This document shows, piece by piece, positions 20,245 through 23,962 of a stretch of DNA of 64,000 bases. Numbering within the stretch: the stretch's first letter is position 1; each line of letters starts with the position of its first letter. The stretch covers positions 930,001-994,000 of the forward strand of contig NC_013522.1 in NCBI RefSeq assembly GCF_000024905.1. The letters are read 5' to 3'. The position numbers and the translations under genes were made by a program. The DNA comes from Thermanaerovibrio acidaminovorans DSM 6589 (lineage in GTDB: Bacteria > Synergistota > Synergistia > Synergistales > Synergistaceae). The notes under the pieces were generated by a model. It did no database searches. It had not been told where the DNA came from and saw nothing but the letters and a program-made list of their open reading frames with translations.

Positions 20245-20274
20245 TTGACGCATCCGAAGTGGCCGTGTTATAAG
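20245..20274 (+). promoter_or_regulatory. Promoter of the serine-biosynthesis leader
   Basis: TTGACG (20245-20250), 18-base spacer and TATAAG (20269-20274) with TG at 20266-20267 (extended -10). The predicted start is near 20281, giving a leader of about 238 bases before the first enzyme gene, within which a leader peptide and terminator are found. This accounts for most of the 363 bases between mltG and the aminotransferase. Confidence 0.75.
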
Positions 20275-20305
20275 CAACGAAATTTTACGAACAGGGGGTG
20301 CCACG

Positions 20306-20434
20306 GTGGTCCCATTCCAACGCGACTTCGGTTCCTCTCCCTCTGGTTGCTCCAGTTGCTGGTCCTCTTCTTCCCTCGGAGAGGACGGGACCTTCGCATA
20401 CGCATCCCCCAGAGGACGGTTGAGCCGAGCCTAG
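20306..20434 (+). CDS. Serine-rich leader peptide (42 codons), candidate attenuator
   Basis: GTG start with SD AGGGGG (20293-20298) seven bases upstream and TAG stop at 20432-20434. Of 42 residues 11 are Ser, nine of them within residues 10-23, the core reading SSPSGCSSCWSSSS. Both TCN and AGT codons are used. The same stretch holds two Cys, one Trp and one Gly, amino acids made from serine. The peptide lies just upstream of a terminator and of aminotransferase and serA genes. This is the architecture of his/trp-type leader peptides, where stalling at scarce aminoacyl-tRNA prevents termination. No homologue is claimed. Confidence 0.7.
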   Translation: MVPFQRDFGSSPSGCSSCWSSSSLGEDGTFAYASPRGRLSRA

Positions 20435-20497
20435 AGATTCAGAGACCAGGATATCTTCGGAGAGGGGGATGGCGGACGCCTCCCCCTCTCTAAATTT
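20362..20497 (+). promoter_or_regulatory. Attenuator: mutually exclusive leader hairpins and intrinsic terminator
   Basis: Terminator: GAGAGGGGGA (20460-20469) with TCCCCCTCTC (20481-20490), then TAAATTTT. Antiterminator: CATCCCCC (20403-20410) can pair with GGGGGATG (20464-20471), using the left arm of the terminator. GTCCTCT (20362-20368), inside the Ser codon run, can pair with AGAGGAC at 20380-20386 or with the second AGAGGAC at 20411-20417, which adjoins the antiterminator arm. A ribosome stalled on the Ser codons would hide GTCCTCT, free the 20403-20417 segment and prevent termination. AGGAGG of the next gene (20505-20510) follows the T-rich tail. Confidence 0.7.
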
Positions 20498-20518
20498 TAA
20501 TCCTAGGAGGTAGTTAAC

Positions 20519-21652
20519 TTGACCAGGATGCTTCTGACCCCGGGACCGGTTGAAGTGCCCCACCATGTGGCCCTCGAGGGGGCCACCAGGATGATATCCC
20601 ACCGAAGCGGCCAGTTCTCCGCCCTATACCGGGAGCTATTGGCGGATCTGTGTCGCCTGCTGGAGGTGGAGGAGCCACCGGTCCTCTTCCCCGGATCGGG
20701 TACCGGGGCATTGGACGCTCTGTGCCAGAACCTGCTCTCCCCGGGGGACCGGGTTATCTCCCTATCGTGCGGGGCCTTCGGCCATAGGTTCAGGGAGATA
20801 GCCTTGAGGAGGGGCGTTGATGTGATCCCCCTGGACGTGCCATGGGGGGAGGGGATCGGACCTGATCTGGTAGCCCAGGCGATAAGGGCCAACCGGGACA
20901 CAAGGGCGGTGCTCATTACCCACAACGAGACGTCCACCGGGGTCCTCAACCCCATAGAGCTGGTGACGGAGGTTATCCCCGATGACGTCCTGGTCCTGGT
21001 AGACGCGGTCAGCTCCGTTGGGGCCGTCCCCTGCCTCCCGTCCAAGTGGAGGGTAGATGGGCTGGCCACGTCATCTCAGAAGGGGCTCATGTGTCCCCCC
21101 GGGTTGGGGATGGTGTGGCTATCCCCCAGGGGGTGGGAGAGGGCCGCCCAGGTCTCGTGCCCCACCTACTCGCTGGACCTAAAGCTCTACAGGCTTCACC
21201 GGGAGAGGGCCATGGAGACCCCCTACACTCCCCCGGTGTCACTCTACTTCCAGCTGGCCAGGGCCCTAAAGGACATCCTGTCGCATCCTAAGGAAACCTG
21301 GTGGAGGGATCGGCGCAGGTTCTCCCGAGGCCTGTGTGCCGCTCTGGAGGCCCTGGGGCTCTCCCCGCTAGTCAAGGATCCATCTCTAAGGTCGCCGGGG
21401 GTGACCGCCATAGTGGGAGAGGAGGGGCTCTGCAAGGGGATTCGCAAGTCCCTGGCCCAGATGGGGCTCCAGGTGGCATCCGGCCAGGGGGATGTGAAGG
21501 ACCGCCTAGTCAGGATAGCCCACTACACCCCCATGGGCTGGCCAGAGCTATCCATGATCTGCGGGACGGTTTGGAAGGCCATGGTGGAAATGGGTATGAG
21601 GCCTGAGATGGACCGGGTCATGGAGGCGGCTCTTGTGGAAATGGAGGGATGA
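20519..21652 (+). CDS. Class V aminotransferase, probable phosphoserine aminotransferase
   Basis: 377 residues from TTG 20519 with AGGAGG eight bases upstream. PLP-dependent fold type I; TPGPVEVP at the N-terminus, FPGSGTGALDA, and TSSQKGLMCPPGLGMV with the Schiff-base lysine resemble the alanine-glyoxylate/serine-pyruvate subgroup. Because it directly precedes serA and a phosphoserine-phosphatase candidate, it probably converts 3-phosphohydroxypyruvate to phosphoserine. Serine-glyoxylate or alanine-glyoxylate transamination is the alternative. Expression is presumably controlled by the upstream serine leader. Confidence 0.85.
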   Translation: MTRMLLTPGPVEVPHHVALEGATRMISHRSGQFSALYRELLADLCRLLEVEEPPVLFPGSGTGALDALCQNLLSPGDRVISLSCGAFGHRFREIALRRGVDVIPLDVPWGEGIGPDLVAQAIRANRDTRAVLITHNETSTGVLNPIELVTEVIPDDVLVLVDAVSSVGAVPCLPSKWRVDGLATSSQKGLMCPPGLGMVWLSPRGWERAAQVSCPTYSLDLKLYRLHRERAMETPYTPPVSLYFQLARALKDILSHPKETWWRDRRRFSRGLCAALEALGLSPLVKDPSLRSPGVTAIVGEEGLCKGIRKSLAQMGLQVASGQGDVKDRLVRIAHYTPMGWPELSMICGTVWKAMVEMGMRPEMDRVMEAALVEMEG

Positions 21653-21655
21653 TCC

Positions 21656-23316
21656 ATGTGGAAAGTGCTTGTAACCGAGTCGATTCACGAGGAGGGGCTA
21701 AGGATCCTGAGCGAGGCGCCGGATGTCAATCTTGTGATCAAGGTGGGCATCAAGCGAGACCAGCTCATGGAGGAGCTCAAGGACACGGATGCGCTACTCA
21801 CCCGGAGCGGCACCGCCATAGACGTGGCGGTCCTCAACGGGGCGCCACGGTTGAAGGTGGTGGCCCGGGCGGGGGTTGGGGTGGATAACGTGGACCTCAC
21901 CGAGGCCAGCAAGAGGGGCATAGTGGTGATAAACGCACCAACGGGGAACACCCTTTCGGCGGCGGACCACACCCTTGGGCTCATGCTGTCCCTCGTCCGC
22001 AAGATACCCCAGGCCCACGGGTCCGTGCTCTCGGGACAGTGGGACAGGAAGAGCTTCATGGGACATCAGCTCCAGGGGAAGAGGCTTCTGAGAGGCTTCT
22101 GATAATAGGTCTCGGCAAGATAGGCAGCCAGGTGGCCATCAGGGGCAGGGCCTTCGGGATGGAGGTCTGGGCCTTCGACCCCTACGTGTCCAAGTCAAAG
22201 ATGGACAACCTGGGGGTTAACCAGGTGGAGAACCTGGAGGACGGGCTGGCGACCGCGGACGTGGTCACCATCCACGTGCCCCTCACCGACGAGACAAAGG
22301 GAATGCTGGACGACCGGCGCATAAGGACCATAAAGCGGGGGGCGTACTTAATCAACTGCGCAAGAGGGGGCCTGCTGGACGAGGAGGCCTGCTATGAGGC
22401 CCTTCGGGACGGGAGGCTTCAAGGAGTGGCCATGGACGTGTACGGGGAGGAGCCCATCCGGAGAGATCATCCCATGCTCCGGGAGGATGTGAGGAACAGG
22501 GTTGTGCTAACCCCCCATATAGGGGCCAACACCTTCGAGGCCCAATCGGCGGTGGCCAAGATCGCCGCCCAGAACCTGCTCTTGGCCCTCCGAGGGGAGC
22601 CATACGAACATGCGGTGAACCTGCCTTTCATGAAACATCGGTTGTCGGACCAGAAGAAGCTCTTCCTGGCCCTGGCCAGGAACCTGGGCATACTGGGGAC
22701 CCACCTGGCGGACCTCACCAGGGGGGCCATCAGGTCCTGTAGCGTGGTGCTCCGGGGCCCCCTGTTCCAGGAGGAGGACGAGCCCATCCGCTTCGAGGTG
22801 CCCTTCAGGCTCAAGCCCTACACGGTGGCCTTCCTCAAGGGACTGTTGGAGGTGCGGCACGGGGCGGAGGTTAACTATATGATTGCCCCCCTCATGGCCC
22901 GAGAGAGGGGGATAGAGATAGAGGAGGGGACCGGAGAGTCCAACACCTACCGGAACGTGATAGACGCCACGGTGGTTACCGAGAAGGGCTCCGCCAGGAT
23001 CGTGGGCACCGTAACCGAGGAGGGGCGCCAGCGGGTGGTCAGGATAAACGACTACTGGCTTGACCTCATCCCCTCCGGCAAGATCCTCCTCTTCCAGAAT
23101 CACGACAGGCCCGGCGTCATAGGCAAGGTGGGTACCATGCTTGGTAGCGCCAACGTCAACATAGCCAACTTCGCCCTGGGCAGGAAGAACGGCAGTGGCC
23201 TGGCGTTGGCGGCCCTTCAGATAGACCAGGACCTGAGCGAGGACCTGCTCAAGACCCTTAGGGAGGACGTGGACCTCATCTGGGCCACGTCGGTGTCACT
23301 GAAGGAGGACCTTTAG
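21656..23316 (+). pseudogene. serA: D-3-phosphoglycerate dehydrogenase, frameshifted by an 11-bp tandem duplication
   Basis: Two frames together encode one long-form SerA: the first (21656-22102) ends after GHQLQGKRLL with an out-of-frame RGF and stop; the second (open from 22039) continues LLIIGLGKIGSQV to 23316. Removing one copy of the 11-base repeat at 22080-22101 restores GKRLLIIGLGKIG and a 549-residue protein. The restored protein has the NAD-binding and substrate domains (INCARGGLLDEE, LTPHIGANTFEAQ), an intervening ASB-like domain and a C-terminal ACT domain (RPGVIGKVGTMLG) for serine feedback. No other lesion was seen, so the event is recent, reversible or strain-specific. A GTG at 22039 might allow a C-terminal fragment. 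Confidence 0.9.
22080..22101 (+). repeat. 11-bp perfect tandem duplication inside serA
   Basis: AGAGGCTTCTG occurs twice head to tail (22080-22090 and 22091-22101). The second copy adds 11 bases and shifts the frame. It lies at the start of the glycine-rich NAD-binding loop, exactly where the two parts of serA meet. Confidence 0.97.
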
Positions 23317-23317
23317 G

Positions 23318-23962
23318 ATGAGGCTCCTGCTGGTAAGGCACGGTCAGACCGACTGGAACAGGGAGGGCAGGTTCCAGGGAAGGATGGACGTGCCCCTCAA
23401 CGAGACCGGGAGGCGGGAGGCACGGGCTGTGGCATCCAGGCTGGCCCAGATCAGATTGGACCGGGTGATATCGAGCCCCTTGACCCGGGCCCTGGAGACC
23501 GCCAAGGCCATAGCGGAAGCCAACCTCTCTGGACCCCAGGTTAACATGCTGGACCCGCTCACGGAAATAAGCCACGGTGAATGGGAGGGGCTCCTGTGCG
23601 ACCAGGTGATGGAACTGTGGCCCAAGATGCTGAAGCTCTGGCGGGAAGAGCCCACGAAGGTCAGGATGCCGAACGGGGAGGACCTGTTCGACGTGGCCTC
23701 CAGGGTTAGGATGGCGTTGGACAGGATAATGGAGGACTTCAAAGGGGATCAGACCGTATGCGTGGTATCCCACGATGCGGTAATAAAGGTCATCCTCTGC
23801 TCCCTCACGGAGGCCCCGCTGGACTCGTTCTGGCGGTTCATAGTTCCCAACGCCAGCCTGAGCGCCGCCATCCTTGGGGGCCCGGTCCCCAAGGTGGTCT
23901 TGGTGGGAGACCGATGCCACCTTGGGGCGGACATCTCCTTCTCCGAGCAACGGGGACTTTGA
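23318..23962 (+). CDS. Histidine phosphatase superfamily protein, candidate phosphoserine phosphatase
   Basis: 214 residues of the cofactor-dependent phosphoglycerate-mutase/phosphatase fold. LLVRHGQTDWNREGRFQG carries the RHG nucleophilic histidine and VVSHDAVIKV the second histidine. It starts one base after the serA stop. Metal-independent phosphoserine phosphatases (PspA of Hydrogenobacter) belong to this family, and the operon would otherwise lack the last step of serine synthesis, so phosphoserine is the favoured substrate. Phosphoglycerate mutase or alpha-ribazole phosphatase are alternatives. Convergent with the nudix gene, 11 bases apart. Confidence 0.85.
   Translation: MRLLLVRHGQTDWNREGRFQGRMDVPLNETGRREARAVASRLAQIRLDRVISSPLTRALETAKAIAEANLSGPQVNMLDPLTEISHGEWEGLLCDQVMELWPKMLKLWREEPTKVRMPNGEDLFDVASRVRMALDRIMEDFKGDQTVCVVSHDAVIKVILCSLTEAPLDSFWRFIVPNASLSAAILGGPVPKVVLVGDRCHLGADISFSEQRGL

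Follow-up and report, generated by a model that had tools for sequence, protein, structure and literature searches.

Ribosome-mediated attenuation is classically known from the tryptophan and histidine operons. Attenuators of the trp, his, leu, ilv, thr and phe operons combine a promoter, a short open reading frame rich in codons for the product, an alternative antiterminator and an intrinsic terminator, and the locus described here resembles them in this arrangement; it differs from them in having serine as the cognate amino acid and in belonging to the phylum Synergistota. Up to a 2010 survey leader peptides were known from the Proteobacteria and Actinobacteria only, and that survey added the Firmicutes (PMC2965389). 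The initial annotation of this DNA remarked that serine-sensing leaders are not commonly described, and we likewise found no serine-specific leader-peptide attenuator in the open-access literature; paywalled reports may exist. The serine specificity and the occurrence in Synergistota appear to be new, the mechanism being the classical one of trp and his.

Three described systems come close in other respects. Serine T-boxes of the Firmicutes, for example those of Paenibacillus serine genes, sense the charging of tRNA-Ser and regulate serine synthesis (PMC8002221), whereas the leader described here is proposed to sense by translating a Ser-rich frame and has no T-box match. The serC RNA motif of alphaproteobacteria (RF00517) is a pair of short conserved stems that presumably act at the ribosome-binding site (PMC1273637); it too lies upstream of serC-serA, but without a leader peptide. 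In serine-starved B. subtilis, ribosomes pile up at UCN codons more than at AGC or AGU, and sinR provides a parallel in that its Ser codons, UCN most strongly, delay translating ribosomes under serine shortage (PMC3862929). There, however, the effect is on how fast a repressor gene is translated, and no attenuator is involved.

The window analyzed here is a stretch of 64,000 nucleotides from Thermanaerovibrio acidaminovorans Su883T, and the promoter, leader, terminator and genes described below all lie on its + strand. A sigma-70-type promoter (20245..20274) can be read directly, with a −35 hexamer TTGACG at 20245-20250, an 18-nt spacer and a −10 hexamer TATAAG at 20269-20274, each matching the consensus at five of six positions. 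A simple scan of the window for promoter and terminator consensus picked up neither element, because the consensus used was too strict (for the −10 it demanded the final T). Downstream of the promoter, a Shine-Dalgarno (SD) sequence AGGGGG (20293..20298) precedes a leader ORF of 42 codons (20306..20434), starting with GTG at 20306, ending with TAG at 20432-20434 and reading VVPFQRDFGSSPSGCSSCWSSSSLGEDGTFAYASPRGRLSRA. Serine is specified at codons 10, 11, 13, 16, 17, 20, 21, 22 and 23, giving a run of nine Ser codons in 14 (20333..20374; eight UCN and one AGU, together with two Cys and one Trp), which are the putative regulatory codons. Direct reading and translation bear out both the GTG frame with its SD and the Ser run as first reported. 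In dinucleotide shuffling of the 320 nt upstream, such a density was reached only once in 5000 trials, and in all six frames of the window there is a single other place with nine Ser in 14 codons, antisense to serA at about 21757. Because of this second place the Ser run is not decisive by itself, and a frame that is Ser-rich by chance has to be weighed against the evidence from orthologous loci given below.

Beyond the leader frame lies a strong hairpin (20460..20490), with an outer stem of 10–11 bp and an inner GGC/GCC, followed by the tail TAAATTTTA (20491..20499). The tail is a poor U-tract, so that 'intrinsic terminator', the term first applied to this element, is only a fair label in T. 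acidaminovorans: the hairpin holds up, but the U-tract is weak in the window and clean T-runs are seen in relatives. For the same reason relatives are a better place than the window to test the attenuator. The left arm of the hairpin contains GGGGGATG (20464-20471), which is complementary to CATCCCCC at 20403-20410 just as originally claimed. We consider this latter segment the putative region 2, or antiterminator arm, and position-equivalent arms in relatives pair with the left arms of their own terminators. In free RNA it can also pair with AGGGGGTG at 20293-20300, which overlaps the leader SD. A putative region 1 (20340..20368) lies within the Ser run, where direct reading shows CCTCTGG (20340-20346) to be complementary to CCAGAGG (20409-20415), and GTCCTCT (20362-20368) to AGAGGAC at either 20380-20386 or 20411-20417; these segments may contribute to the switch. 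The two AGAGGAC copies are present as the initial annotation stated, but the GTCCTCT/AGAGGAC competition that it proposed is not supported by conservation.

The operon begins with a class-V aminotransferase gene (20519..21652), which has a TTG start and the SD AGGAGG at 20505-20510; its SerC2-like identity rests on the operon context, as the models give no such name. It is followed by serA, encoding phosphoglycerate dehydrogenase (21656..23316), and by a gene for a histidine-phosphatase-family, PspA-like phosphoserine phosphatase (23318..23962), whose best NCBIfam match, to PspA, reaches 160 bits where the curated cut-off is 350. The serA gene is interrupted: an exact 11-bp tandem duplication, with AGAGGCTTCTG occurring twice at 22080-22101, shifts the frame, leaving frames of 21656-22102 and 22039-23316 on either side, and relatives read through that point. 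This frameshift was absent from the initial annotation. The type strain may lack SerA, the duplication may be a reversible tract, or it may be a sequence error.

Orthologues of the aminotransferase were searched for in 188 Synergistota genomes, and at 70 loci we inspected the DNA upstream. A Ser-rich upstream ORF (uORF) is present at the same position, about 160–310 nt upstream, in about 60 of 65 orthologous Synergistales operons, a count that takes in five loci with just four Ser in 12 codons, accepted by position and architecture. It is missing at five Synergistales loci (L024, L025, L033, L062 and L068) and at three loci outside the order. At least seven Ser in 12 codons are found at 52% of loci and in 0.3% of shuffles, and 50 loci with homologous aminotransferases from other phyla, serving as an outgroup control, all remain at or below shuffle level. 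Since it is conserved in orthologous loci the leader is more than chance; the one antisense place with an equal Ser density speaks for a chance frame, but that explanation is already refuted by the order-wide conservation and by outgroups without the leader. Nearly all orthologous leaders have the near-consensus promoter at the equivalent place, as TTGACN N17-18 TATAA. The Ser run shares its frame with a start codon, usually accompanied by an SD, and most relatives have a clean canonical terminator with a T-run between the uORF and the gene. When leaders upstream of the same operon are aligned, a comparison suggested with the original observation, the promoter, the Ser-rich frame, the terminator and the terminator/antiterminator complementarity are all kept across the order.

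Two variants of this arrangement were observed. In genus g11 (L036, L038, L039, L045, L049, L054, L059, L060 and L061) the leader ATG lies only 6–9 nt past the −10 hexamer, and translation of the leader peptide from an almost leaderless mRNA would follow. L033 (genus g9) has a clean terminator 60–20 nt upstream of the aminotransferase gene without a Ser-rich frame, and is possibly a decayed attenuator.

The pattern of substitutions and codon use is consistent with a translated frame. Third codon positions change most in all four clades compared, by about 2:1 in two of them, albeit in an alignment built on residues, which favors a third-position excess. Outside the Ser run the leader is not conserved between genera. 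Relative to the first gene, Ser is enriched 5.1-fold in the leader, a figure inflated by the choice of windows for Ser, and Pro is depleted to a ratio of 0.09. Leader Ser codons are UCN in 89% of cases, compared with 77% in the first gene, the UCN share being higher in 21 of 26 genera; this bias may in part serve pairing. It also makes the RNA pyrimidine-rich, as expected if the UCC/UCU run acted as C-rich RNA in Rho-dependent or other pyrimidine-tract control rather than as Ser codons. Against this, the remaining 11% of leader Ser codons are AGC or AGU, Pro is depleted even though CCN codons would be equally suitable, the run keeps one frame with an SD and a start codon, and intrinsic terminators are conserved between the uORF and the gene; we regard control of this kind as very unlikely.

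Cysteine and glycine are made from serine, and their codons are enriched 4.2- and 1.8-fold in the leader over the first gene. Sensing of Cys and Gly was set aside, as most of this enrichment is gone once corrected for base composition. A broader version of the attenuator, in which an order-wide leader would read the whole serine family by keeping the starvation-sensitive UCN codons and adding Cys and Gly codons, in g11 by way of the near-leaderless start a few nt beyond the point where transcription is expected to begin, is doubtful, and it is not established because the corrected excess is just 1.35-fold for Cys and 1.18-fold for Gly.

What is conserved also bears on whether the leader RNA might bind serine or uncharged tRNA-Ser directly, as a riboswitch or T-box, without translation of a peptide. 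There are precedents, in that T-boxes control serine genes in Firmicutes (PMC8002221) and the serC motif occurs ahead of serC or serA in alphaproteobacteria (PMC1273637). However, Rfam models gave no match in the window or in 20 relatives, including the covariance models for the T-box and for RF00517, and it is the frame with its SD, start and Ser codons and its third-position variation that is conserved, with no shared RNA fold. This explanation is already weakened and seems extremely improbable.

We have compared the antiterminator pairing in 26 genera. Pairing was scored on ungapped stems, because gapped duplex energies were so noisy that own and swapped pairs could not be told apart. The leader arm scores 20.2 with the left arm of its own terminator versus 17.8±0.7 after swapping terminators among genera, and only one of 2000 genus permutations of the terminators was as good as the own pairing. 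Arms equivalent to CATCCCCC in relatives are GCCGGTCCCGAAACG, TCTCAAAGCG or CGGCTTCTCGCCTCGG. Compensatory stem changes, which the initial annotation proposed seeking in related leaders, occur in one clade of seven genera, within the family of the window sequence, where the 14-bp antiterminator helix shows two double changes (C-G/U-A and G-C/A-U) besides two one-sided wobble changes. Families f5, f6 and part of f10 show no clear antiterminator pairing in either the pairing or the folding tests.

Folding of the nascent RNA, computed at equilibrium and not as kinetics, predicts that the terminator left arm is sequestered to 0.70 with a ribosome stalled at the Ser codons, to 0.32 with the ribosome at the stop codon and to 0.59 in shuffles (Wilcoxon p 4e-7 and 1e-4; 26 genera). 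The contrast between Ser stall and stop is partly trivial because a ribosome that has advanced further leaves less RNA exposed, and the comparison with shuffles is the fairer one. With no ribosome the predicted value is 0.66, not different from the Ser stall (p 0.08); as the left arm is sequestered without a ribosome too, the expected default termination is not seen in equilibrium folding. For the window sequence alone the values are 0.72 at the Ser stall, 0.57 at the stop and 0.77 when shuffled, a switch no better than in shuffles. The stop codon follows the arm at a distance of 24–35 nt in the window and in some relatives, too far for a ribosome at the stop to cover it.

The leader also follows the serine pathway. 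We picked 30 genomes, mainly from those that lack a close orthologue of the aminotransferase. A close SerA is likewise missing from 22 of them, and seven of the remaining eight have enough sequence upstream of a first-placed serA. In five of these seven (L161–L165) a Ser-rich leader is present directly before serA, with terminators in the equivalent place, and the antiterminator arm of L165 is identical to that of its family; L166 and L167 have no Ser-rich leader before serA. Besides the Ser run, the leader peptide of L161 and L162 has a conserved Cys-Cys-Phe-Trp. No Ser-rich uORF was found before serS in the genomes examined, nor before glyA with the exception of one candidate, L208, whose frame with CCSSSSSHLTHSS has seven Ser in 12 codons and could be coding on the opposite strand. 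Since it stands before serA when serA comes first, and not before serS or glyA (L208 excepted), the leader is tied to the serine pathway rather than to one gene. Leaders sought before ilvB and trpE in these genomes gave none that was convincing. About 300 nt upstream of trpE in L228 (genus g2), LGWWWRTCGLPPGA is a short frame containing three Trp codons, which might be a trp leader peptide.

These placements are relevant to the idea that the uORF serves to make a functional small protein rich in Ser, Gly and Cys, with the terminator being incidental. The frame does look translated and its composition is conserved, but the sequence beyond the Ser run is not shared between genera, the terminator and pairing are conserved as well, and the position is linked with the serine operon in both of its layouts, so that we find a small protein of this kind highly improbable.

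The favored explanation, and very probably the correct one as far as can be judged from sequence, is that the leader is a ribosome-mediated transcription attenuator that senses the charging of seryl-tRNA and controls de novo serine synthesis. The order-wide conservation, together with the leader before serA where serA comes first, supports this reading, which was already that of the initial annotation. We infer that a ribosome would begin on the leader ORF and, with seryl-tRNA in short supply, stall at the Ser codons. The segment behind the Ser run (CATCCCCC in the window) would then be free to pair with the terminator left arm, and RNA polymerase would read through into serC2-serA-pspA. With ample serine, the ribosome would reach the stop codon, the segment would be covered or drawn back into upstream pairing, and the terminator would form.

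Leader-peptide attenuation would in this way reach a further amino acid, serine, and a further phylum, the Synergistota. The approximately 60 natural leaders, with two operon layouts and near-leaderless starts, allow the choice between UCN and AGY, the length of the Ser run and the antiterminator pairing to be compared, and the claim that UCN are the starvation-sensitive Ser codons becomes testable on regulatory codons.
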